In this document: piece by piece, positions 4,464-33,145 of the stretch
How the letters are laid out: every line of letters starts with the position of its first letter
Position numbering within the stretch: the first letter of the stretch is position 1
Notes under the pieces: generated by a model
Databases searched by the model: none
The model's input: only the letters and a program-made list of their open reading frames with translations
What the model was told of the DNA's origin: nothing
Assembly: GCA_024639845.1 (NCBI GenBank)
Contig: JAHEGG010000001.1
Span: forward strand, 62,001-126,000
DNA from: Microbacteriaceae bacterium
GTDB lineage: Bacteria > Actinomycetota > Actinomycetes > Actinomycetales > Microbacteriaceae
DNA length: 64,000 bases
Reading direction: 5' to 3'
Translations under genes and position numbers: made by a program

Positions 4464-4554
4464 GGCCCGAAGCAGTGCCAATTTGATTTATCGTGCACCG
4501 CTGCAGACCTTCATGACTTACATCGAAGTAATTGATCAATGAAAGGTTATTCAA

Positions 4555-5328
4555 ATGAATCTCGTACAACACGGTGCGGTTTACAACATGCTTTCCCTTG
4601 GTATTGCGAGCATGACGTTCACCTCACTTTTCCTCTGGTACGGGCGCGAGCGCGTTCTGCCTAAGTTCCGCATGGCTGTCATGGTTTCAGCAACCGTTAC
4701 CTCGATTGCCGCCTACCACTATTTCAGAATGTTCGACTCGTTCAACGAGGCTTATCCAGTCGGTGGAACCGTTGATGGCGGCTTCGCCGGCTACAACGTC
4801 GGCTACCGATACGTGGACTGGTTCCTCACGGTTCCTCTGCTACTCGTTGAGCTCGTTGCAGTCATGGGCTTGGCGCGTGCCGTGCAGTCATCGTTGCTTA
4901 AGCGTCTTGTACCAGCCGCCGCAGCCATGATCGTGCTTGGTTACCCTGGCGACATGCACACCCAGCTATTCGGTCTATCGAACAGCATGTGGGGACTGCT
5001 CTCAACCATCCCGTTCCTGTACATCATGTACGTACTCTTTATCGAAATTGGTAAGAGCCTGGCATCGCAGTCGCCAAAGGTTCAGGGCCTCCTGAAGGGT
5101 GCACGTCTCCTACTCATTGCCACATGGGGTGTTTATCCAATCACCTTCATCTTGGCTATGAACGACGTTGGCGCTCCATCGTTTGAGGCGGTGGTCAACC
5201 GTGAAATCGGATACAGCATCGCAGACATCCTTGCAAAGTGTGTCTTCGGTCTGATCATCTTCACCATTGCCCGCATCAAGTCGGCAGAAGAGAACAAGGA
5301 ATTCGCTGCAAACGAGTTCCGCGACTAA
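4555..5328 (+). CDS. actR: Actinorhodopsin, light-driven proton pump
   Basis: 257 residues, seven TM helices. Helix C RYVDWFLTVPLLLVEL carries proton acceptor D88, T92 and proton donor E99, the DTE triad of outward proton pumps. The Schiff-base lysine is K228 in helix G (DILAKCVFGL). H55 in helix B (AYHYFRM) matches the His that pairs with the acceptor in proteorhodopsin. L96 sits at the spectral-tuning site, predicting green absorption. G147 in helix E (SMWGLLST) replaces the bulky Trp of bacteriorhodopsin, the fenestration seen in carotenoid-binding xanthorhodopsin. It has its own promoter and a strong terminator, so it is monocistronic. No retinal-synthesis gene (blh) is next to it. Confidence 0.97.
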   Translation: MNLVQHGAVYNMLSLGIASMTFTSLFLWYGRERVLPKFRMAVMVSATVTSIAAYHYFRMFDSFNEAYPVGGTVDGGFAGYNVGYRYVDWFLTVPLLLVELVAVMGLARAVQSSLLKRLVPAAAAMIVLGYPGDMHTQLFGLSNSMWGLLSTIPFLYIMYVLFIEIGKSLASQSPKVQGLLKGARLLLIATWGVYPITFILAMNDVGAPSFEAVVNREIGYSIADILAKCVFGLIIFTIARIKSAEENKEFAANEFRD

Positions 5329-5416: not shown

Positions 5417-5803
5417 ATGACTGAACTCAAATCAATTTCACGAGTCAGGCTCGTGCTTCGCACCGGGTCTGCCGTTTTCGGCCTGAGCGCACTGGCCCTA
5501 ACAATCACCCCAGCCATCTTCAACGAGCTACTCGGTCTAATTAACACGCCCGAGCTCGAATGGTCGATGCGAATGATCGGCATCGCACTGGTTGCGCTGG
5601 CGGGCAACATGTTCTCGGTTGCGAGCCGTGGCAGCGAAGCATCCGTGCGATTTTCTGGGCGAGTGATGCAGGTTAGCGCTTTCGCGCTCGGGGTTCTCAC
5701 GCTGATCATTCCGGCATCGCTCAACTGGTTCACGATCGCTTATGCCTGTGTGGGCTTCGGCTTCTCGGCCGCCTACACCTGGGCGATGTTGGGCAAGAAC
5801 TAG
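5417..5803 (+). CDS. Small 4-TM membrane protein of unknown function
   Basis: 128 residues with four hydrophobic segments (about 17-40, 50-67, 80-98 and 105-125) and short loops. The start has a near-perfect AAAGGAGG ribosome-binding site (5404-5411). It lies behind the rhodopsin terminator, so it is probably transcribed separately or by read-through. It ends 4 bp before the convergent photolyase stop. I do not recognise a family. The overall shape resembles DoxX-like or DUF4345-like small membrane proteins, but no diagnostic motif is visible. Confidence 0.75.
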   Translation: MTELKSISRVRLVLRTGSAVFGLSALALTITPAIFNELLGLINTPELEWSMRMIGIALVALAGNMFSVASRGSEASVRFSGRVMQVSAFALGVLTLIIPASLNWFTIAYACVGFGFSAAYTWAMLGKN

Positions 5804-5807
5804 CCGC

Positions 5808-7343
5808 CTAGATTTGCCCGAGCTCGAGGCCTTCGAGGACCTCGACAGCACGCTCGCGCAATTCGGGCAAATCCGAGAGCCGATTCAGACCCATAATTTG
5901 CTGGCCCATGCGATGGTTTTTCGCGAAAGCATCACGATGACGATCAAGAAAGTCCCAATAGAGGGTGGTGAATGGGCACGCGTTTTCGCCAACGCGGAGC
6001 TTGGGGTCATAGCCGCAGCCTTTGCAGAAGTTAGTCATTCGGTTCACATAAGCACCGCCCGCGGCATAGGGCTTGGTCATGAGTTGCCCGCCGTCGGCGT
6101 GAACACCCATACCGATGACGTTTGGCACCATGACCCATTGGCTCGCGTCGACGAAATTTTCGCGCATCCAGTCAAGAAATTCGCGCGGATTAGTGCCGGT
6201 GACCAGTGCCAGGTTGCTCAAAATCATTAGGCGCGGGATGTGGTGAACCCATGCCCGCTTTTCGACATCGGCCACGACGCCACCCACGCAGGCCATCTTG
6301 GTTTTGTTGGAGTCGCTAAAAACCGGCAGGAGTTTGCGGTTTGCCGCCAAGCCGTTGCGGTTAGCGTAGTCCTCGCCCAAAAACCAATACATTCCGTTGA
6401 TGTATTCGCGCCAGCCGATCACCTGGCGCACGAACGCTTCGACCGACTCGATTGGCGCAGCGCCCCTATTGAAGGCGGCAACGGCAGCGTCAACCAACTC
6501 ACGCGGATGCAGCAAACCGACGTTTAGATATGGGCTCAGCAGCGAGTGGTGCAACGACCAGTCTTCGTCGGTGACGGCGTCTTCATAGGGGCCAAACTGC
6601 ACCAAGTTGTGCTGCACGAAATGATCGAGCACCTTAAGCGCGCCAGCTCTGGTTGTGGCCCAAAGCGCGTTCGGTGCGTGGTTGAGTTGCCGCGCTACCT
6701 CGAGGTCAAGATCATCGCGTTCGTGTTCGAGTCTCGGCGGCCAGACGTGATTCTTCGGCGGTGGCAGACGATTCTCGGCGTCAAAATTCCAGCGTCCGGT
6801 CACGGGTTTGCCGTTTTCCACCAGGATGCCCAAACGCAACCGCTGACCCCGATAAAAGTTCTCCATCACGAAGGCCTTTTGGCCACCTGCCCAATGAGCA
6901 AAGAACGCTCGGCTGGTTAGGAATAGGTCGTTCTCCACAAGCTCGATGCCGAGTTGGCGGAACTGCCGATGCTGCTCGAACGACGACGGCTCGGCACTCA
7001 GGGTGGGCAAACGCCCGTGTTCTTGCCAAATCGCGGCTAGCCCATCCGGGGTGTTTGCTGCTTGGCGATAATCGACGGTGAATCCTTCGGCGCGAAGCGA
7101 CTCGGCAAAATGGCGCGCACTCGACACCATGAAGAACAACCGCTCGGTGTGCCAGGGGCGGCCGGCGAGCATCCGCTGGCTTTCGACCATCACGATCAGG
7201 TCGATTTCGGGGTCGGCATCGCGCAGCACACCTGCGTCGCGATTCAGATGATCGAACGGCACCACGAGGATGCGGCGAAATCGAGCACTGGGCGCGGAGG
7301 GCTCATGAGCTGTCGAAAGCTCAGCCCCTGACTCCTCAGCCAC
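5808..7343 (-). CDS. FeS-type photolyase/cryptochrome, (6-4) photolyase family
   Basis: With the GTG start at 7343 the protein has 511 residues, the usual length for the FeS-BCP (PhrB/CryB) clade. Residues about 20-150 are the Rossmann-like antenna domain; the rest is the helical FAD domain ([31 protein letters not shown]). Four Cys, C352, C440, C443 and C456 ([27 protein letters not shown]), match the 4Fe-4S ligands of Agrobacterium PhrB in spacing. It should repair UV (6-4) photoproducts with blue light. The frame is open further upstream to 7427, but that extension is low complexity and lies over the DUF2256 gene; the GTG at 7343 overlaps that gene's stop by 8 bp, which argues for translational coupling. 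Confidence 0.93.
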
Positions 7344-7473
7344 GGCACTTTTTCGAGCAGTATTTGACGTTGGCCCAGTCTTTTGCCCACTTTTTGCGCC
7401 ACTCGAACGGCAACCCACAGCGTTCACAAACCTTTGGCTCGAAGCCGTTCTTAGTCTTTGGTGTCGGGGTCAC
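7336..7473 (-). CDS. DUF2256-type zinc-ribbon-like small protein
   Basis: 45 residues. The protein has C16-x2-C19 and C39-x3-C43 around a basic/aromatic core ([12 protein letters not shown]), the pattern of DUF2256 proteins, and probably binds one zinc. Translation begins at GTG 7473, the only start codon after the upstream in-frame stop at 7498-7500, and ends 8 bp inside the photolyase. The gene lies between the DUF305 lipoprotein and the photolyase on one strand, apparently in one transcript. Its function is unknown; coupling to the photolyase suggests an accessory role in photolyase maturation or DNA-repair control. Confidence 0.85.
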
Positions 7474-8533: not shown

Positions 8534-10117
8534 ATGGTCGAACCCAACTACGACGTTGCCATCATCGGCGGAGGCCACAACGGCCTAGTTGCCGCCGCCT
8601 ACCTGGCCAAGGCCGGCAAGTCAGTCGTGGTGCTCGAACAGCACGATGTTCTCGGTGGTGCCGCCGTCTCGGCCCAAGCTTTCGCGGGAATCGACGCTCG
8701 CCTCTCCCGTTATTCATACCTGGTCAGTCTTTTGCCGGCCCGCATCATTGAAGACCTAGGTCTAGAAGTCGAACTTGCCCCACGCCGCTTCGGCTCGTTC
8801 ACCCCTGATCCTGCTGGAGACTCTGGGTTGCTGATTGATAAAACGGATACTGACGCCACCGCCCGTTCGTTTGAATCGGTTTCGGCCGCCGACGACTTCG
8901 ATCGGTGGAACGAGTTTTATGCCAAGACCGAAGTTATTGCCCGCAAACTTTTCGGCACTGTGCTCGAGCCCCTTCGCCGCGAGAACGATGTCGCGGCGAT
9001 GCTGGGGCCCGAACTTTGGCACGAGTTCTTCGAACAGCCGATTGGCGAGACCATCGAGGCGAGTTTTTCGAGCGACCTAGTGCGCGGGGTAGTCATGACC
9101 GATGCGCTGATTGGCACCTTTGCGTCTAATCGCAACGAGTCGCTTGAGGCCAACAAGTGCTTTCTCTATCACGTGATCGGAAACGAGACCGGCGAGTGGA
9201 GCATCCCAGTTGGTGGCATGGGCGCGGTGACTGGTTCGATGGCGCGTCGGGCAGGCGATCTGGGTGCAGAGCTTAAAACCGGATGTGCCGTTATTGCGGT
9301 TGTGCCAGCTAGCAAGTCAGGTGATTCGGCCGGACACACGGTGACCTATCGCGAGGGCACAGCCAGCAAATCGCTAACCTCGCGCTACCTGCTGGCGAAC
9401 GTTTCAAAACCGGTCATGGATGCCCTACTCGGGCAGCCCAGCGAGCACGAGATTCAAGGCGCTCAGGTTAAGGTGAACATGCTCTTGCGGCGGTTGCCGC
9501 GCCTCAAGGCCGGCACCGACCCGGTCGCAGCCTTCGGCGGAACCCTGCACATCAACGAAGGGTTTGCCCAGCTGCAAACGGCGTTCGAGCAGTCCTCGAG
9601 CGGTCGGATACCAGATCCGTTGCCTTGCGAGATTTATTGTCATTCGCTCACCGACCCGAGCATCCTCGGGCCAGAGCTGCAGGCATCCGGGGCTCAAACT
9701 CTTACGGTGTTTGCCCTGCACACACCGCACTCTTTGCTAGTCGGGCGTGACGGGGATGCGATGCGCGACGCCCTCGAACGTGCGGTGATCGACTCGCTCA
9801 ACTCGGTGCTCGCCGAGGACATCCGTGATCTGCTGATGATCGACGGCGACGGCAATCCGTGCATCGAAACCAAAACCACTCAAGACCTCGAAGATGCGCT
9901 CGGGCTACCTGGCGGAAACATCTTTCACGCTCCGCTGAGCTGGCCTTTCGTGCCAGACGACTCACCGCTAGAGACGCCGGCCGAACGGTGGGGTGTCGAC
10001 ACTGGGATGCTGGGCATCCTCTTTTGCGGATCAACCGCCCGTCGCGGTGGTGCGGTCAGCGGAATCGGTGGCCACAACGCGGCGATGGCGGTGCTCGAAC
10101 TCGAAGCTAGGGTTTGA
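8534..10117 (+). CDS. Phytoene-desaturase-like FAD oxidoreductase (PYROXD2-like)
   Basis: 527 residues. The dinucleotide-binding motif YDVAIIGGGHNGLVAAAYLAK is followed by VVVLEQHDVLGGAA, as in the phytoene dehydrogenase/amine oxidase superfamily. A second FAD contact lies at the C-terminus (LFCGSTARRGGAVSGIGGHNAA). The overall sequence fits the PYROXD2/CrtI-like branch better than a true CrtI, whose genes normally sit with crtB and crtE; none of those is here. The substrate is unknown. The location next to the rhodopsin and photolyase genes makes a carotenoid or retinoid substrate possible but unproven. Confidence 0.85.
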   Translation: MVEPNYDVAIIGGGHNGLVAAAYLAKAGKSVVVLEQHDVLGGAAVSAQAFAGIDARLSRYSYLVSLLPARIIEDLGLEVELAPRRFGSFTPDPAGDSGLLIDKTDTDATARSFESVSAADDFDRWNEFYAKTEVIARKLFGTVLEPLRRENDVAAMLGPELWHEFFEQPIGETIEASFSSDLVRGVVMTDALIGTFASNRNESLEANKCFLYHVIGNETGEWSIPVGGMGAVTGSMARRAGDLGAELKTGCAVIAVVPASKSGDSAGHTVTYREGTASKSLTSRYLLANVSKPVMDALLGQPSEHEIQGAQVKVNMLLRRLPRLKAGTDPVAAFGGTLHINEGFAQLQTAFEQSSSGRIPDPLPCEIYCHSLTDPSILGPELQASGAQTLTVFALHTPHSLLVGRDGDAMRDALERAVIDSLNSVLAEDIRDLLMIDGDGNPCIETKTTQDLEDALGLPGGNIFHAPLSWPFVPDDSPLETPAERWGVDTGMLGILFCGSTARRGGAVSGIGGHNAAMAVLELEARV

Positions 10118-10512: not shown

Positions 10513-12195
10513 TCAGTGCCTAAGCGCTAATGTCAACTTCGAACCGCCTTGTGATAGTGCCTTCAGCGACCAATTTTGACCACTGACCGTCGAAAAATAC
10601 TTGCTCCCCAGCCCAACTGCCCCGGCGCGCGGCCCGATGCCGTCATCGGTGACCTGAATCACGACGTCATCGGAGAGGCACACCACACTGACAAGAATTG
10701 TGTGAGCCAAGCCGTGCCGAATTGAGTTATTGGCCGCTTCTTCGACGATCCGAACAATGTCACTTCGAGATTCGCAGAGTTGACACATTTGTGAGACTTC
10801 AATTTCGAGATTCGCAAATCCCTGCCATCGTTGCGCGAGGTCGGTCAGGCTCGCCGAAGTTGTAATGGCGGTTAAGGGCTTTTGAAGTAAAGCGAGCATC
10901 GAATCAATTTGTTCAAGTTCTGCCTGGAGGTTTTCTCCCTCACCACGATCCAATTTGAAAGCCAGCAGCAAAAGTTTGTTTTGAACATTGCCATGAATGT
11001 GATTTGCGAGTTCACGGCTGACGAGTTGATTTTTCGTATGAATGACCTCAGCATCTACTCCGAGCTGCACCGCTAACTGCTCTAGCTGCCTTCGAATTTC
11101 AGCCCTGGTCTCCAAAGTGCTCTTGACGAACCCCGTCATAAAACCAGTTTGAGTTATCCAGACAAACATGACGGCAACCGCTACGGCTGTTGGATAGTTC
11201 GCCAGTGTGCCGAACAGCAAATCCGAAACTACGACGACCGCTGTCGCTGTAGCAAAGTTGAACAAGACAAAGTAAGCAGCGGATCCAGCTATCGAAGCCG
11301 GCCTGACTTTACTAGCTGCCCAGTAGGCCAGCCAAATCACTGTTCCGGTGGCCAAAGATCTTAATATTCCCTCGCCCACTCCCGTCTCTTGCAGATACGG
11401 GATAAGTATCCCGGTCGAGACTATCCCCGCAACCGCGGTGCCCGCGAAAGGTCGGTTGAGAACCGCCAACCGTGACAAATTTTTGAACGAGAAGTCTGAC
11501 GCGTTAGATTTTTGTTCCTCCCAAAGCCTCTGAGCTAAGGGGCGAAGTTGCTCGTGAACCACATCTTTCAAAAGAGCTGGGACTCTTGATTCGGAGTTGC
11601 CGCTGAGTTGGTGCTTAACATCTGAAATCGACGATCGGAGTCTGTCGATTTCTAGACGGATTTTTCCTGACTCAAACGTTGCGGAATTGGAAGCTTGACT
11701 TACTCTCTCTGCAACGAGCGCATCGCGTTCGTTTTGAAATCTCTTAAAACTTGCCGCCAGGATGGCTAGTGCTGGAAGAGTCACCAATCCCAAGATGGCA
11801 GCTTGAACAGTTCTCGGCCAGAGCGTGTCAAGATGCGCCTCGGCACCTAGTAACCATGCGAGATAGATGGTGGCCGAACCTTTAGTGGCTCCAATAAACA
11901 AAGCAAATGTCAGAACGGCAAGGATGTTTGCCGGCTTCAGCTTGCGGTTGGTAAATATTCGCCGATCGGCAAAGAGCAAAAGGACCCAGCAGATTGCCAT
12001 GGCAAGAATATTGGCCACAGTCCAAACACCAAGATTAAAAAAACTGAAGTTGTGCAGGTTGGAGAGCAGAGATGTTATCCAGAACGCAGGCAGAAAAAAT
12101 AGATAAACGCGAAAGTTAAATAGTGAAGGACCGGTGACAGCGGAAATCAATTTTCGGATTCTTAACGCGGGCTTCTCGACAACTCCATATGTCAT
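10513..12195 (-). CDS. NarL-type membrane sensor histidine kinase
   Basis: 560 residues. Two blocks of TM helices (about 30-150 and 250-355) flank a cytoplasmic segment with a predicted coiled coil (155-240). The HisKA_3-like region RELANHIHGNVQNKLLLL carries the likely phospho-acceptor H401. The ATPase domain at the C-terminus has an N box (EEAANNSIRHG), a G1 box (VTDDGIGPRAG) and a degenerate lid. The start overlaps the response-regulator stop as ATGA (12192-12195), so the pair is translationally coupled. No extracellular sensor domain of note is visible, so it may sense a membrane or intracellular signal. Confidence 0.9.
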   Translation of the reverse strand: MTYGVVEKPALRIRKLISAVTGPSLFNFRVYLFFLPAFWITSLLSNLHNFSFFNLGVWTVANILAMAICWVLLLFADRRIFTNRKLKPANILAVLTFALFIGATKGSATIYLAWLLGAEAHLDTLWPRTVQAAILGLVTLPALAILAASFKRFQNERDALVAERVSQASNSATFESGKIRLEIDRLRSSISDVKHQLSGNSESRVPALLKDVVHEQLRPLAQRLWEEQKSNASDFSFKNLSRLAVLNRPFAGTAVAGIVSTGILIPYLQETGVGEGILRSLATGTVIWLAYWAASKVRPASIAGSAAYFVLFNFATATAVVVVSDLLFGTLANYPTAVAVAVMFVWITQTGFMTGFVKSTLETRAEIRRQLEQLAVQLGVDAEVIHTKNQLVSRELANHIHGNVQNKLLLLAFKLDRGEGENLQAELEQIDSMLALLQKPLTAITTSASLTDLAQRWQGFANLEIEVSQMCQLCESRSDIVRIVEEAANNSIRHGLAHTILVSVVCLSDDVVIQVTDDGIGPRAGAVGLGSKYFSTVSGQNWSLKALSQGGSKLTLALRH

Positions 12196-12842
12196 TTAAG
12201 CGGTTTACCGATCGACCGAAAGACCACGTTGGCAATGTGGACTCGCTGGTTCACCGACGAATCAAACTTGATGTCTAACGCTTTAGCGATTCGCGAGATA
12301 GAAACTTCCACAGACTTTTCCGTGACGAAACGGGTCTTGGCAATCTCTGCGTTAGACATTCCGCTGGCGACCAACCGGAGTATCTCAATCTGCGAGTCAG
12401 TGAGTTTAGCGAGCGGACTTTGGCGGCCCAATGTGGAATCCTTGCTGCGATTTTCTGAGGCTCTGGTGAGTGCGGCGATCAGAATCTCAACCGAAGTGAC
12501 CGAACCCTTGGTCAGATATTCAACGTTGGGAGGTAGCTCCGAGAATGTGCTGTTGAGCAGCCTTGGGTCATCGAAACTTGTCAAAAATACGATTCCCAGA
12601 TTGGGCAGCAACCGTCTCAAACCGTGAGCTAGGTCGAGACCAGTCGGGCCAAGACCTAGGTGCAAATCAAGAACAACGACATCTAAATGCGGAATGTTCT
12701 TCTTCGCTTCGATAAGTGCGTCGCTTGCCGAACTCGTTTCAAAAGCCACTTCAAAACCGGCAAGCCGAATTGCCGAGACAATGGCCAGGCGCATCAATGA
12801 ATCATCTTCGACCACAGCGATTTGCAGAACCATACCTGACAT
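12192..12842 (-). CDS. LuxR/NarL-family response regulator
   Basis: About 216 residues from ATG 12842. The receiver domain begins LQIAVVEDDSLMRLAIVSAI, with the phospho-acceptor Asp in VVVLDLHLG and the conserved Lys in YLTKGS. The C-terminal LuxR helix-turn-helix is LTDSQIEILRLVASGMSNAEIAKTRFVTEKSVEVSISRI. The frame is open to a TTG at 12872, but those ten extra residues are not family-like; ATG 12833 is an equal candidate. First gene of the two-component operon, divergent from the secreted protein at 12988, which could be a target. Confidence 0.9.
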   Translation of the reverse strand: MSGMVLQIAVVEDDSLMRLAIVSAIRLAGFEVAFETSSASDALIEAKKNIPHLDVVVLDLHLGLGPTGLDLAHGLRRLLPNLGIVFLTSFDDPRLLNSTFSELPPNVEYLTKGSVTSVEILIAALTRASENRSKDSTLGRQSPLAKLTDSQIEILRLVASGMSNAEIAKTRFVTEKSVEVSISRIAKALDIKFDSSVNQRVHIANVVFRSIGKPLK

Positions 12843-12987
12843 TGTTTCATTGCCCGCGGTTATGCACAGCAAAACCCTGCGACCCTGATGGGTTACCCCG
12901 TCAATATGTAACTCGATAGTGGCAAAGCCTGTTCGGTGGCGAGGTTAATACGTAGCCTGTTGCTAGATCACACCTTCGGAGGCATTC

Positions 12988-27079: not shown

Positions 27080-30000
27080 CTAGAAGCGGATGTTCAACTC
27101 AACTCGACGGTTCTTGGACTGAACCTTGCTGACCGGCTGCTTTGCACCGACCGGGTTCACCCAGAACTTCGCCTTAAGCCCTTGCGCCTTGAGCTGGTTA
27201 ACCGTCACTTGAGCGCGCTTCTTGGCTAGCAATTTGTTGATCGCCATCAAAGTGCGACCCTTGCCATCGGTTTCGGTAAAGCCCGATACTTTGACTCGAG
27301 TTGCGGTCTTCATCCAGTACTTGACGGCCTTCAACGTCGCCTTAGAATCCGCTGTCAGCGCCCACTTCTGGTAATCAAACAGCAGACCCTTCATGGTCCA
27401 ACTCAAGTCCTCATTCTGTTCGATGACCGCCTTGAGGGCACACTTGGCTCCGAGCACGACGTATACAGTCGAGCGGTATTTCTTGCCCGCTTCGTCGACC
27501 GATTCCAGAATGAGTCGGTGCAACCCTGGTGGCACACAAGCTTTCGCGGGTATGACCATGGAGCCGTTGATTGAGCCATCTGGTGAAACAGTGCCCGTCA
27601 CCATTGGCACTTTCTTCGAATACATGTTCAAGGTGTAGTCGGCACCGGGTTTCAGATCTTTAGCGCTCATGCCCACGGTTTGACCAGACAGCTTCTGCCC
27701 AAAATTAGGGTTCAGTAGTTTCAGGGCCAAGTCAGGCGTAGGAACAACCGTTGGGGCCTGGCTGTAGGTGTAGACAAACGATGTACTGCCACTTGTGGCC
27801 GTGATAAGAAGCGTAGCCTTGCCAGTTCCAGCAGGGGCGTTGAAACTAATGGTCGTTCCATCCTGGCTTCGAACCAAAGCCGAGTTCGGAATCACCGATG
27901 TGCCCAACTTGATTTCGCTGACCAGCTCTAGGTGCGAACCGGTCATAACGATTAGGTTGCCTCCAGCTTCAAACCCGCTAAGCGGAGCGACATCATTCAC
28001 GGCTGCGACAGGCGGGTCATACGAGTAATCGAGTGACAACTCGGACTCACCAGCGATCAGAATCACCGAGACGTTGCCGGTTCCGGCTGGCGCTGAGAAA
28101 GTGATTTCAGTGCCGTCGCCGTTTACCGTGAAGCCGGTGTTTGGAATAACTACGTCGCCGAACTTGATCGAACTCACGTCGCTCAGGTTGGTTCCCGAAA
28201 TCACGATGGTTTCGCCACCGGCTTCGGAACCGGAGGTTGGTGCCATGCCGCTGATAGTCGGTGGTGGCGTCGTGATGATCAAGATTCCAGGCACGAACTC
28301 AATCGCGGCATCATAGGCTGCCAAGTTTGTGGTCACGATGTTAGCGCTCGAAGGAACCACCGTGTATCGTCCTGGAGCGGTTGGTGCCGCGTCAAGTTTG
28401 GTCACGCCGTCGTAGTAATCGAAAACAACCGTATCCACACCATCCCCGTCAGCCAAACCGATAACTTCATAGGTTGGCGAAGGTGTTTCACCCTCACCGA
28501 TCGTGATGTCCTGAGTGATCAGCGAGACCTTCTTGGGTTGGGCGTAGACCGTGATGGTCAATGATTCAACCGTCGACTCTGGGTCACTGGTTGCCACGGC
28601 CGCGTTGTAGTTGGTAGAACCGGCTTGAGATGCTTGCACGATGCAGTCGCCTGGCGCAAGCGCGGTCACGACAAGTTCTGCCGAAATGCTACAGATTGCC
28701 GGAGTCGCAACCGTCACGACGACATCCGAAGCTCCAGATTCTGCAATCGGCGCATTACCCGTAGCAGTATCGATCGAGTAGGCAGTAATCGTTGATTGCT
28801 CAACCACCGACATAACCAGCGACTGCGTTGTAGCGCTCAAGCTCAATCTGGCATTCGCCTTGGTTATCGAGCCAAGAACAAGCAACTCTGAATTTGTCAG
28901 GAAGTAGTTCCAGTCGAAAACTCCGTCGAGTTTGATGCGTTGGATGAAGTCTGTCTGACCGTCTGAGCCAGCGACATAGACTGGCTTGTTCTCACCTACC
29001 GATGCGTCAGCGAAGTAGCCGTTGCGGCCATCATTGCCTTGCAGCGTTGGCGTCTCACCATCGAGAGCACCAGTGACAGTTAGTGCTCCTAGATAAATCG
29101 CGACACTGCCGTCATAGGGCTTGCTTGCCGTAACTTTATCGATGGTCAGCGCTCGCTTGGCAATCGTCAAGTTGAAGACATTAAAGGTAGGCAAATAGAA
29201 CATCGCCTGGTCTTTTCCGTCTTTGAGCATTTCGAACGATTTAACTCGGATGTCCCAGCTGCTGGTCGTGGTTCCGTCACCGCCGCACTCATTGAAGACG
29301 ACTGCGACGTTTCCTGGCAAGCCCTCGGACCAACCATATTCAGGGTTATTCTGACCACAGGCCCGGTTTCGATATTCCCAAACCACCTTTGTGATTTCTG
29401 GTGCACCCGCCGGGACATCTAGCGTGTATTCGATGTCCTCATTGCTGTCATTCGTTCCGTCACCGAGTTGACCGCGGTAAAGAATCGATGTTTCGGTGCT
29501 TCCCTTGAGCTTAGGTGTGAAGCCAATCGGAGTTCCATTTATCTGAACGTGCACTTCTGATGAAGACACACCAACATAGAGGCCGCGATCAATCAGCACA
29601 GTTGCGGTGTTGGGGTTTGCTCGCACATACCAGTCGCCAGCGTAGGTTGGAAGACCATCGTGAACGCCATACGTCCAGGTGTAGGTGCGCGCATGATCGG
29701 CAGCCGACTGATATTGGTAGCCAGCGGTTGGCCAGGCTACATCGGGCACGACTTCGTTGAGGCGTTTTGCCGCCGGGATGTTGGCCGATACAGTGAAGTC
29801 GGAACCGGCCTGCACGGTGAGATCTGCGGTCGAACCGTTAATCTTGGTTTCAACCTCGGCCCAGACGCCACAGAACCAGCTGAAGGATCGCGAAATCAAT
29901 CCGGTATCGGCCGGAGTGAACTCGAGGGTTTTCTGACCCCAATGTTCAGTCAAGTCGGTTTGCAGCTTGGAGAAATCAATGACTACCGAGTCGGCAGTCC

Positions 30001-33000
30001 AAGTGAGTGCTGCAGTGTTTATGGGCTGGCCAGACAGCGTCACAGAACCCGTTGATCCAAACATCCCCGTGCCAGTTACCTGAACTGTTGCGGGATTAAA
30101 AGCGCCGATTGCATCTTTGGTGCACAGACCATATGAACCCGAGATGTTTGCCGATGGGGGAAGTGCACCAACATAATGAATCGCATGGCGCACGTAGGTG
30201 AGGTTGTCGTTAGTCTGAACGGCTACGCCGGTCCATCGAACCGGGTTATAGCTTCGCACCGCGGAGAAAGTGATGGATGTATCCGTGATCGACAGAACCG
30301 TGACTTTGACTCTCTCTGTGCTTTCATAGCGCGGATCCCCCCAAGTGTCTAGTTGATATACCTTGGTGCTCGCTCCACTGTCAGAGCCTAAGAATCCCCG
30401 GCCGACAATTTCGAATATCGAACTCGCGTCTTGGGAAGGATCAAAGTTATAGCTTGCGTCGCCGCGACTGTTGGCAACAGTAGGAGCCACCCCGTCGATA
30501 GCCAACGGTGCAACAGAAAGGTCTTCGACCGAAGTGAAGGCGCCACTCCAGGTTTCGCTGGCAAGCCCAGACCCAGGAACCACCGTGACGTCGTAACTTC
30601 CAACAGGGAGAGCGGGGAGAACCAAAAGGATGACTGTGTCGGTGTATGAATCAGGGACCACCGATTGACCTCCGATCTGCACTGTTCCCGAAGATCCGAA
30701 TCCGGTTCCCTTCAATTTGAGAACTTCTCCGCCGTTCTTATTGAAAGATGGGCGGGAACGGCCGTAACCGTAGATGCACTCCCAGTTGTCGGTGGCACAA
30801 GTTGCGTTATAGATGCCTAGATCTTGATCAGTGCCCAAGTATGTGACATTTGGCTTGGTTACGCGAACAGAGGCAGCCAATGGCGTGCTTGCGCCATTGG
30901 GGGTGACCAGAATCGAGAGAGAGCCAGCAACATCGTTTGGAATAACTATTCCTGAAATTTTCGTTCCAGAGTCAGTCGATGTGTATGCCTGCTCCGCGAG
31001 CTGGCCGATCTTGAGTGTTCCCGAACTGCCAAACCCAACACCGGTAATGGTGACGGTTCGGTCGGCTGACGATGCCGATGCGGCAACACTAGACGGGGTG
31101 ACTGCCTTCACAGCAGGAATGGCCGTGTAGGTGTATGCGTCTGAAACCACCTTTTGGCCAAGGTTCGTCGAAACCGTTACCGATACCTTGCCGGCGCTTC
31201 CAGCAGGAACCTTAACGTCGACTTCTGATGCTGTTGCTCGAGTGACCTCGGCAGGGTTCAACCCGAACATCACACCAATCGTGGATGGCGTTCCGGCGTT
31301 GGCAACAGAAATGGTTACCGTCTCGCCTCCGGACGTGACTCCTGCGCTGGCCGAAAGGTTCGATACCGTAGGTGCTTGGGATGCAGCGACAACGTTGATT
31401 GAAGCGGGAACTGCGTTTGCTCCGCCACCGCTTGAAGAAAGAATGGTTACAGGTTGAGCGCCAAGTGGCAGGTCGAAAGGAACAATTACATCCACCATCG
31501 AGTCTGAGACCAAGATGACCTTAGGGGACTTCTTTCCTCCGATGGTGACTGTCGGTGAACCACTAAAGCCGAAGTTGGTGCCTTCAAGGCGAATCTTGGA
31601 ACCCCCGGTTGCTGCCAAGGAGGTTTCGCTTATCGAAGAAATGACTGGGGTCGCCCCATAGGTGAACGTGGCTGCCACCTTGATCGGGCCGTTTCCATTG
31701 TCAACCGTCACGGTCTTGATTCCGGTGGAGGTTCCCTCTGGAACAATTCCCGTGATCCACTGCTGAACTGGCTTGCCAAACTGATCCCAGGCAGAACCGC
31801 AGTAGTCGCCGTACTGGAGATTGACAGATGTCAGTGCCTTACCGTCAATTTTCACCTCGACGAAGTTTGGCTCGGTGTAGAGATTGCAGAGGTTATAACC
31901 CGTGACCTTCACACGTTTGCCGCCGCTGATGTCGGACTTGGCCGGCGAGAAAGCAACGGAGGAGGGTAGCGTGGGCTTCCAATTCACAACCTTGCTAGAC
32001 AAAACCACAAAATTCCACTTGTCAGTAGTTGGGTCGTAGTTGTTGTAACCAACCTCGAGAGTTTTCTTGCCCGCGGAACGAAATTCAGGCTGTCGAGAAT
32101 ATCCGTTGGCAAGGCCAGTCCATGAATGTAGCTTTGGTTTCACGGTCGGATCAGGCATGACACCCCAAAAATCAAGCGAAACATCGGTGGCAGTGTCTCG
32201 TAAGCGCAACTGAATGTTGCTCTGTGGATAAAGGTTTGGGCCCTTAACCTCGATTTGAGACAAACCCGTGATCGTGCCGGCACTTACGATTTCAGTCACG
32301 GAGTAGGGTTCGGAAAAAGTCATTGTTGAAACCGAGGAGGATTCAGCCGACATATACGCACCCCACTCGTTTGACGCTCGCATCAAGCCGTCGCAATTAT
32401 TTTGCAAGCTAACTTTGGCGGACCCAGAGAAACCCGTGGGCATGTTTGGCGTGTAACCACTGAGTGTGGTTATGCCTTCAGCGTCTGTCGTTGGCGGATT
32501 AGCTTGTTGCCAGCCGAACCAAGTGCTGTTCGCCTGCGTGTTTCCACTGGCAGGATCGACATATGTGTAGAGCAAGTAGACATAACAGTTTGCCGCGGTG
32601 TGCCCTGGGATGCTGCCAGAAGAAAGGTTCACGTTTTTCATGCGAACCGTAATGGGCTTGCCACCAATCCAGGAAGCAGTGTCGGTTGAAACCGATACCA
32701 GTTCTGGGGCAGCCATAACCTGATTGCTGATGTTCACTGTGTAGTGCTTTTTTGTGGTCCCATCCTGGGCGGTCACTTCAATGTCGAGCAGACTGGATTC
32801 GGGCTCGAGGAAGATCTGATATGGGGTAGCACTAAGCGCCGTGCCCGTGACTCCCTTAAAAGTAACCTTCATGGTTGCCAGCGGGTCAGATAGAACCGCA
32901 TTCACGTCAACGGTGTCGGCCACGGTTGCCAACTGGTAGCTATAAAGATTCGAATCGAATGCCGGGTATATCCCCGTGGAATCACGGCGACCCCACCAGT

Positions 33001-33145
33001 CGAAGTAGTTTTGACTTCCGAAGCTCAGCCCTGTGAGGCTTGCGTCGCTGGAGAGCGGTCCTGCGTTCGCTGGGCTAATCGGCCCTGAGAAAAACGCAGC
33101 TAGAAGTGCGAAAAAAGCTAGAACCGCGACATAAGACTTTTTCAA
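27080..33145 (-). CDS. Giant IPT/TIG-repeat surface protein with OmpA-like C-terminus
   Basis: 2021 residues. TTG start preceded by AAAGGGG. Signal peptide about 1-28. Residues about 32-126 resemble the cadherin-like beta-sandwich domain (LTGLSF, YSYQLATVADTVDVNAVLSDPLA, YTVNIS). Then many IPT/TIG units (PVISSISETSLAATGGSKIRLEG, VSPSSVA, APTSGSEAGGETIVISG, VAPLSGFEAGGNLIVMTG), an MBG/YDG-like unit (LTIDKVTASKPYDGSVAIYLG) and one Cys-pair Ig-like unit. The final 110 residues look OmpA-like (VKVSGFTETDGKGR, LAKKRAQVTVNQLKAQG, NRRVELNIRF), a domain that binds peptidoglycan. No LPXTG motif. Probably a wall-bound adhesin or stalk. Confidence 0.88.
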   Translation of the reverse strand: MKKSYVAVLAFFALLAAFFSGPISPANAGPLSSDASLTGLSFGSQNYFDWWGRRDSTGIYPAFDSNLYSYQLATVADTVDVNAVLSDPLATMKVTFKGVTGTALSATPYQIFLEPESSLLDIEVTAQDGTTKKHYTVNISNQVMAAPELVSVSTDTASWIGGKPITVRMKNVNLSSGSIPGHTAANCYVYLLYTYVDPASGNTQANSTWFGWQQANPPTTDAEGITTLSGYTPNMPTGFSGSAKVSLQNNCDGLMRASNEWGAYMSAESSSVSTMTFSEPYSVTEIVSAGTITGLSQIEVKGPNLYPQSNIQLRLRDTATDVSLDFWGVMPDPTVKPKLHSWTGLANGYSRQPEFRSAGKKTLEVGYNNYDPTTDKWNFVVLSSKVVNWKPTLPSSVAFSPAKSDISGGKRVKVTGYNLCNLYTEPNFVEVKIDGKALTSVNLQYGDYCGSAWDQFGKPVQQWITGIVPEGTSTGIKTVTVDNGNGPIKVAATFTYGATPVISSISETSLAATGGSKIRLEGTNFGFSGSPTVTIGGKKSPKVILVSDSMVDVIVPFDLPLGAQPVTILSSSGGGANAVPASINVVAASQAPTVSNLSASAGVTSGGETVTISVANAGTPSTIGVMFGLNPAEVTRATASEVDVKVPAGSAGKVSVTVSTNLGQKVVSDAYTYTAIPAVKAVTPSSVAASASSADRTVTITGVGFGSSGTLKIGQLAEQAYTSTDSGTKISGIVIPNDVAGSLSILVTPNGASTPLAASVRVTKPNVTYLGTDQDLGIYNATCATDNWECIYGYGRSRPSFNKNGGEVLKLKGTGFGSSGTVQIGGQSVVPDSYTDTVILLVLPALPVGSYDVTVVPGSGLASETWSGAFTSVEDLSVAPLAIDGVAPTVANSRGDASYNFDPSQDASSIFEIVGRGFLGSDSGASTKVYQLDTWGDPRYESTERVKVTVLSITDTSITFSAVRSYNPVRWTGVAVQTNDNLTYVRHAIHYVGALPPSANISGSYGLCTKDAIGAFNPATVQVTGTGMFGSTGSVTLSGQPINTAALTWTADSVVIDFSKLQTDLTEHWGQKTLEFTPADTGLISRSFSWFCGVWAEVETKINGSTADLTVQAGSDFTVSANIPAAKRLNEVVPDVAWPTAGYQYQSAADHARTYTWTYGVHDGLPTYAGDWYVRANPNTATVLIDRGLYVGVSSSEVHVQINGTPIGFTPKLKGSTETSILYRGQLGDGTNDSNEDIEYTLDVPAGAPEITKVVWEYRNRACGQNNPEYGWSEGLPGNVAVVFNECGGDGTTTSSWDIRVKSFEMLKDGKDQAMFYLPTFNVFNLTIAKRALTIDKVTASKPYDGSVAIYLGALTVTGALDGETPTLQGNDGRNGYFADASVGENKPVYVAGSDGQTDFIQRIKLDGVFDWNYFLTNSELLVLGSITKANARLSLSATTQSLVMSVVEQSTITAYSIDTATGNAPIAESGASDVVVTVATPAICSISAELVVTALAPGDCIVQASQAGSTNYNAAVATSDPESTVESLTITVYAQPKKVSLITQDITIGEGETPSPTYEVIGLADGDGVDTVVFDYYDGVTKLDAAPTAPGRYTVVPSSANIVTTNLAAYDAAIEFVPGILIITTPPPTISGMAPTSGSEAGGETIVISGTNLSDVSSIKFGDVVIPNTGFTVNGDGTEITFSAPAGTGNVSVILIAGESELSLDYSYDPPVAAVNDVAPLSGFEAGGNLIVMTGSHLELVSEIKLGTSVIPNSALVRSQDGTTISFNAPAGTGKATLLITATSGSTSFVYTYSQAPTVVPTPDLALKLLNPNFGQKLSGQTVGMSAKDLKPGADYTLNMYSKKVPMVTGTVSPDGSINGSMVIPAKACVPPGLHRLILESVDEAGKKYRSTVYVVLGAKCALKAVIEQNEDLSWTMKGLLFDYQKWALTADSKATLKAVKYWMKTATRVKVSGFTETDGKGRTLMAINKLLAKKRAQVTVNQLKAQGLKAKFWVNPVGAKQPVSKVQSKNRRVELNIRF

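Follow-up and report, generated by a model that had tools for sequence, protein, structure and literature searches.

The actinorhodopsin locus

The window analysed here, a stretch of 64,000 nucleotides, carries an actinorhodopsin gene near its start (Table 1). The open reading frame runs from an ATG to a stop codon, with an in-frame TGA upstream at position 4540. Its product matches the Pfam family Bac_rhodopsin (PF01036, 8.4e-36). Among solved structures, the best match is chain 9hfk, which is the Rhodoluna lacicola actinorhodopsin (RlActR; 6.5e-108), with 178 identities over 250 aligned residues (71%). The AlphaFold2 model, obtained from a 27-row alignment, is a helical bundle (pLDDT 86.6), for which Foldseek returned 9hfk at the top and xanthorhodopsin (XR, 3ddl) next. 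A helix-D proline, which we take to be Pro120, corresponds to Pro124 in RlActR, as against Phe128 in XR, Leu125 in Kin4B8 and Val153 in GR. A mid-helix-D proline, with no position number in the source, is reported to distinguish actinorhodopsins from XR (PMC8113403). Judged by its sequence, with the Bac_rhodopsin match, the helical bundle, the Schiff-base lysine and the D-T-E residues, the protein belongs to the actinorhodopsin family and is an ordinary member of the Luna lineage. No other PF01036 match was found in the assembly (1.397 Mb in 20 contigs, 93.8% complete), a count that covers this Pfam family and not heliorhodopsins. A promoter and terminator scan gave no signal above that of shuffled sequences.

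Table 1 Features of the window discussed in the text.
Feature	Position	Strand	Remarks
Actinorhodopsin gene (257 aa)	4555..5328	+	PF01036 8.4e-36; 9hfk 6.5e-108; AlphaFold2/Foldseek
D88 codon, primary proton acceptor position	4816..4818	+	aligns with XR D96
E99 codon, proton donor position	4849..4851	+	aligns with XR E107
Gly147 codon, fenestration residue	4993..4995	+	alignment; XR G156, Kin4B8 G153, GR G178
Phe198 codon, where known carotenoid-binding rhodopsins have Tyr	5146..5148	+	alignment
Met202 codon, XR Met211 (carotenoid contact)	5158..5160	+	alignment; contact lists as reported in PMC4094778, PMC3587595
Lys228 codon, retinal Schiff-base lysine position	5236..5238	+	aligns with XR K240
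Small protein gene (128 aa), no Pfam family	5417..5803	+	directly downstream of rhodopsin; link unproven
DPRP photolyase/cryptochrome-like gene	5808-7427	-	
CrtO-like FAD oxidoreductase gene	8534-10117	+	best NCBIfam match CrtO, 1.3e-21; 3.2 kb from rhodopsin
Histidine-kinase-like (HATPase_c, weak) and LuxR-type response regulator gene pair	10513-12872	-	downstream of rhodopsin region
Surface-type protein gene (2021 aa)	27080-33145	-	TIG, YDG, cadherin-like and OmpA domains

Eighty related loci, many of them short, were compared for gene neighbourhood. A homologue of the 128-residue gene lies at +0.8 to +0.9 kb in nine of them, and none of 15 other window genes accompanies the rhodopsin in the majority of loci. 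As no neighbour is regularly found near the rhodopsin, none is proposed as a candidate retinal enzyme. A homologue of the photolyase/cryptochrome-like gene starts at most 0.3 kb from the actinorhodopsin gene in four of the 80 loci. Further along, the window holds a putative two-component pair and, in an actinobacterium, a very long surface-type protein with an OmpA domain.

Pump residues and fenestration pocket

The alignment with XR places D88, T92, L96, E99, W146, G147 and K228 at XR D96, T100, L104, E107, W155, G156 and K240, respectively. The D-T-L-E residues are present in all 111 rhodopsin reading frames of the collected loci and Lys228 in 110 of them, the remaining frame being truncated; chance is thus no issue for the pump residues. 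A previous sequence-only reading of this gene had assigned D88, T92, E99 and K228 to an outward proton pump, L96 to green absorption and G147 to a fenestration of the retinal pocket, and all three assignments are supported by the alignment. Outward pumping has been measured for two close relatives, ActR-13023 (reported in PMC8113403) and RlActR (reported in PMC11790970). The best reading of the window protein is that of a predicted outward proton pump.

Gly147 stands where bacteriorhodopsin, which is not part of our alignment, is reported to have a tryptophan (PMC13093654, PMC8113403). Two residues characterize published carotenoid-antenna pockets. The fenestration glycine (XR Gly156) is present in the window protein as Gly147. 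The tyrosine at XR 207/Kin4B8 204, described as common to known carotenoid-binding rhodopsins (PMC12308411), is replaced by Phe198, and in this the window pocket differs in sequence from the published one. In total, the protein is identical to XR at six of 11 carotenoid contacts assembled from PMC4094778 and PMC3587595, where 12 are mentioned.

Among the 111 reading frames, 99 are actinorhodopsin-like (Trp146), with Gly at position 147 in 92, Leu in six and Ala in one. Synonymous codons vary at Gly147 (GGT 59, GGC 26, GGA 7). The six Leu147 rows form one clade (support 100/99) and have Tyr at position 198, where all 92 open rows have Phe. The Ala147 row sits among the near relatives of the window gene, with an exact placement that is moderately supported, and has a further Ala at position 199, where Ile or Val is found in every open row. 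Gly147 is found in 57 of the 58 actinorhodopsin rows of the genus, which come from 57 genomes; the exception is the genome of the Ala row (G174, row L016). One rhodopsin contig (L005), 91% identical to the window gene, was found in a 3.9 Mb bin (G222) together with an unrelated crtB; it is probably a binning error.

The 12 remaining reading frames (L099-L109 and L113, same genus) encode a second, divergent kind of rhodopsin that has D-T-L-E and, in most cases, a Phe in place of Gly147 (12/12 in one alignment, 10/12 in another). Nine of the 12 genomes have, in addition, an actinorhodopsin match.

Carotenoid and retinal genes of the organism

The organism's own crt cluster is located on another contig, in the order crtB-crtI-cycA-cycB-crtEb. 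crtI matches TIGR02734 (7e-163), and cycA and cycB encode two small lycopene-cyclase subunits, both above the TIGR03462 cut-off. The CrtEb-like prenyltransferase scores 421 bits against a cut-off of 217 with NF009608/PRK13105, a model named just "prenyltransferase". crtB matches Pfam SQS_PSY (5.8e-37) and falls below every NCBIfam equivalog cut-off. Since the crtB score is below these cut-offs and the CrtEb model is generic, the gene names lean on Pfam, on gene order and on PMC12422013, which reports crtB, crtI, crtY and crtEb genes and names flavuxanthin as the product. As far as its genes tell, the cluster is that of a C50 carotenoid producer, with crtB, crtI, a heterodimeric cyclase and crtEb. 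The contig stops right after crtEb, and its final 114 bases are repeated at the end of contig C20. Through this overlap the following genes are known: SprT-like/acetyltransferase, permease and deaminase, as named from sequence.

The antenna pigment put forward in the sequence-only reading, a keto or hydroxy carotenoid with beta rings, found no such footing: no FA_hydroxylase of the CrtZ kind was detected in the genome (CrtW/CrtR-type FA_desaturases and P450 hydroxylases were outside this search), and the cluster is of C50 type. A keto-carotenoid could have come from the CrtO-like flavoprotein, in view of its best NCBIfam match and its proximity to the rhodopsin gene. However, its score of 76.8 bits compares with a CrtO cut-off of 1000, and the gene is near actinorhodopsin in just three of the 80 related loci, many of which are short (L042, L065, L071). 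For this score and this sporadic neighbourhood we rejected the gene as the source. Moreover, in the ActR-13023 study, canthaxanthin is reported not to bind and salinixanthin to lower pumping (PMC8113403). An antenna made by this flavoprotein is thus very improbable, and the keto/hydroxy idea gives way to a testable hypothesis of a C50 carotenoid.

Neither Blh nor an RPE65-type enzyme was found in the 93.8% complete assembly. As the first Blh search was positive in none of 14 control genomes, it was repeated on a wider genome set, in which it was positive in 16 of 150 family genomes and in four of 67 genus genomes; a PF01036 rhodopsin is present in 60 of the latter. Two single-contig genomes of the genus (G010, G172) have a rhodopsin and no blh match. 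In three of the four blh-bearing genus genomes, blh is 3 to 18 kb from the rhodopsin. Scarcity of blh is also reported for Luna-1 genomes, at 4% of Rhodoluna and 22% of Aquiluna (PMC12422013). Loss of the organism's Blh in an assembly gap is unlikely but possible. Of the pigment genes whose absence the sequence-only reading had named as refuting, and for which it had proposed a search, those for carotenoids turned up and a known retinal-forming gene did not. The missing gene is not decisive, because Aurantimicrobium minutum is reported to make retinal and to pump without blh (PMC7734400). Retinal for the window protein would come from outside or from a route without Blh.

In three other loci (L180:580-2223, L182:4247-5887, L183:8428-10060), blh and a gene for a lycopene-cyclase subunit are divergent neighbours outside the C50 cluster; the retinal and C50 cassettes thus look separate.

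The lack of a blh or RPE65-type gene also suits a reading in which the opsin is mainly a retinal-free phospholipid scramblase, with light harvesting secondary, and scramblase activity of actinorhodopsin is reported in vitro (PMC12805836). We regard this role as highly unlikely, given that D88, T92, E99 and Lys228 are unchanged wherever a row covers them and that A. minutum pumps without the gene.

Gly147 follows the cyclase and crtEb genes across relatives

Residue 147 was compared with crt gene content in rows drawn from a tree of 98 actinorhodopsin rows, including the window's, plus XR, in which some genomes are present twice. The row from the 3.9 Mb bin was set aside, its 3 kb rhodopsin contig being probably foreign. 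Crt status was clear in 43 rows; the other 55 were outside the set, duplicates of counted genomes or ambiguous. All 37 rows whose genomes kept crtEb have Gly147. Where cycA, cycB and crtEb are lost, the residue is Leu in five rows, all of one clade, or Ala in one row of a separate lineage. The ambiguous rows comprise a Leu147 row cut at a contig end (L028), a Gly row in which cycA is seen before the contig end (L020), a row counted under another genome (L023, G231, counted as G207) and five Gly rows with no match to the crtEb orthologue or with a different crtB type (L032, L060, L064, L065, L081).

Direct reading of crt loci in 40 genomes gave the same picture. The three genes cycA, cycB and crtEb are present in each of the 29 Gly147 loci that extend more than 2.5 kb past crtB; four further Gly147 loci run out of contig before reaching crtEb. 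None of the seven loci from Leu or Ala genomes carries any of the three genes; two of the seven are cut, one inside crtI (L143) and the other after crtB (L146, continued on L201). A genome-wide search of these seven assemblies, including two small ones of 0.7 and 0.9 Mb, found no crtEb orthologue, only a paralogue at 29-33% or, in one, nothing. Cyclase loss in the closed genomes refers to the crt locus.

Gene order shows both losses. Five Leu genomes share the order idi-crtB-crtI-MFS-DnaK, and their Gly sister (L021) has idi-crtB-crtI-cycA-cycB-crtEb-MFS-DnaK; in the sixth Leu row (L028), the crt locus is cut at a contig end. In the Ala genome, ilvD precedes crtB, and GNAT/SprT-like, CodB permease and deaminase genes come after crtI, an arrangement also seen around the cluster of the window organism. 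Its crt locus, read across two contigs overlapping by 465 bases at 98.5%, is without cycA, cycB and crtEb; a CorA-like gene is missing as well, and a 110-aa ORF follows crtI. Leu and Ala genomes alike keep crtB-crtI.

A gene pair encoding a CrtI-like flavin amine oxidase and a UbiA prenyltransferase with about 32% identity to CrtEb recurs in relatives (L179:13309-15576, L202:1997-4257 and L203:5971-8246). In L203 it lies about 5 kb from the actinorhodopsin gene, and in L179 about 10 kb. This CrtEb paralogue has no match in the window's own genome.

Strength of the co-variation

When the 43 rows were placed on a tree built with residue 147 masked, the residue and the gene content each change twice, in the same lineages. 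These are two independent pairs, both in the same direction; the sign test (p 0.5) cannot reach significance because there are only two. Weighted by branch length, the probability that each loss branch receives one of the two residue changes is 0.0021, and that both fall anywhere within the lost lineages 0.010.

Other positions of the protein changed along with residue 147. Among columns at least 97% fixed in the open rows, those changed in all six Leu rows are G147L, Y159F and F198Y (L35A is also found in the open sister, and single Leu rows have further changes), and those changed in the Ala row are G147A, L161I and M202L. In each lineage, two of the three broken columns are XR carotenoid contacts, an enrichment of p 0.005 per lineage, or 0.073 per lineage with column 147 left out. 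The Ala case is one MAG, its GCG codon is one base from Gly, and Ala147 may leave the pocket partly open.

Eight Gly147 assemblies have no match to the crtEb orthologue, and most are incomplete or cut. The crt contig stops 74 bases past crtI in G207/G231, counted as one genome, and ends after cycA in G230. G235 (0.7 Mb) and G256 (1.5 Mb) have no crtB match, G255 has a crtB fragment only, G251 and G260 have a different crtB type, and the eighth is the 3.9 Mb bin with the probably foreign rhodopsin contig. For none of the eight is a loss proven at the crt locus, but three of them, G256, G251 and G260, may truly combine Gly147 with the lack of crtEb. With two independent events and these eight assemblies, support for the co-variation is moderate. 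It comes from MAG data, and the effects of cycA, cycB and crtEb are inseparable.

The same observations bear on whether the open pocket is a relic of a xanthorhodopsin-like ancestor, empty or lipid-filled, its match with crtEb being a coincidence or a shared relaxation. The sharing of this glycine by XR, GR and Kin4B8 would fit a relic, as would the small number of events, just two, and the Gly147 assemblies lacking a crtEb match, three of which may be real. However, the length-weighted coincidence is 0.002-0.01, the Gly codon varies synonymously and yet encodes Gly in 37/37 crtEb-keeping rows, two of three fixed-column changes per lineage fall on carotenoid contacts, and the closed rows retain intact pump residues. 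An unused, inherited opening is, in our judgement, unlikely.

Candidate ligand and proposed mechanism

Lycopene alone is insufficient to hold the pocket open, since the Leu and Ala genomes keep crtB-crtI. Retinal self-supply is not what keeps Gly147 either: in the Ala genome, blh lies 3.1 kb away from the rhodopsin, and six blh-bearing genomes with crtEb stay Gly147. With both set aside, a product of cycA-cycB-crtEb remains. Three genomes of the genus (G092, G167, G169) have kept crtEb and show no rhodopsin match; the pathway thus has other uses, and any dependence would be that of the pocket on the pathway.

The pocket could also take xanthophylls released by other organisms, such as lutein and zeaxanthin, as in Kin4B8. 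The fenestration glycine is in place, the relatives are freshwater bacteria, and hydroxylated xanthophylls work in Kin4B8 (PMC13093654). An external supply should, however, be independent of the organism's own cyclase-crtEb genes, and the Tyr204/Ser208/Tyr209 set of Kin4B8 is absent, with Phe198, Ile199, Met202 and Asn203 at the aligned XR positions. Such scavenging is therefore improbable.

We favour, as somewhat more probable than its alternatives combined, an outward pump whose pocket stays open for a product of the cell's cyclase-CrtEb genes, a C45/C50 carotenoid that would most simply be an antenna. In the proposed mechanism, retinal, imported or made by a Blh-free route, would sit on Lys228 and drive outward proton pumping via D88-T92-E99, green-tuned by Leu96. 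Gly147 would open the retinal ring to the membrane, Phe198, Ile199 and Met202 lining the opening. Selection would keep this pocket open because it seats the end group made by the organism's own cyclase-CrtEb genes. The ligand would not be a keto- or hydroxy-C40 xanthophyll but flavuxanthin, which PMC12422013 names as the product, or one of its cyclised relatives, for instance decaprenoxanthin; once bound, it would most simply harvest light. After loss of cycA, cycB and crtEb, the empty pocket would be filled by a change from Gly to Leu or Ala. GR offers a reason for closing an empty pocket: its G178W variant is reported to block the carotenoid and to improve stability and pumping (PMC9151804), a gain obtained with no carotenoid bound.

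More broadly, and more tentatively, Luna-lineage actinorhodopsins may use a C50-type carotenoid antenna in a Gly+Phe rather than a Gly+Tyr pocket, with pocket and pathway co-evolving and the pocket being filled upon loss of the C50 genes. The fenestration glycine of actinorhodopsins, its match to XR Gly156 and native carotenoid binding were already reported for ActR-13023 in 2021 (PMC8113403). What is new here is that Gly147 tracks the cyclase-crtEb genes, with moderate support; no published link between the actinorhodopsin fenestration and crtEb was found in a literature search with few subscription papers and no preprints. Actinorhodopsin-bearing actinobacteria are abundant in fresh water and occur widely, and an antenna of this kind is a possible reason for C50 genes in bacteria without a known retinal gene. 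The natural closed-pocket variants would allow the worth of such an antenna to be measured.

Comparison with known systems

XR from Salinibacter ruber (48% identity to the window protein) and Kin4B8 (8i2z; 47%) have the same fenestration, through Gly156 and Gly153, respectively. They differ from the window protein in what surrounds it: XR has Tyr207 in place of Phe198 and a 4-keto carotenoid as antenna, and Kin4B8 has a polar Tyr204/Ser208/Tyr209 set for 3-hydroxy xanthophylls, which the window protein lacks. Aurantimicrobium minutum likewise combines no known retinal gene with a C50-type cluster (L151) and Gly147 (L031). Retinal production is reported for that species (PMC7734400).

RlActR, the closest solved structure, has the same D-T-E-K residues, with Gly151 and Phe202 at the pocket, and is described as a green-absorbing proton pump in a paper whose abstract makes no mention of bound carotenoid (PMC11790970). 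ActR-13023, from Candidatus Aquiluna sp. IMCC13023 (L062), has the same pocket Gly (its Gly145) and Phe, and its genome has crtEb; it also has blh, which was not found in the genome of the window organism. It is the one actinorhodopsin case we found with reported native carotenoid binding, seen by isothermal titration, a spectral shift and a higher initial pumping rate (PMC8113403). The native carotenoid, of m/z 591.49, was left unidentified in that 2021 report. Rhodoluna lacicola and Aurantimicrobium photophilum are genetically editable (PMC11577799). The co-variation described here narrows the ActR-13023 ligand to a product of three genes in editable strains, which makes the proposal directly testable.
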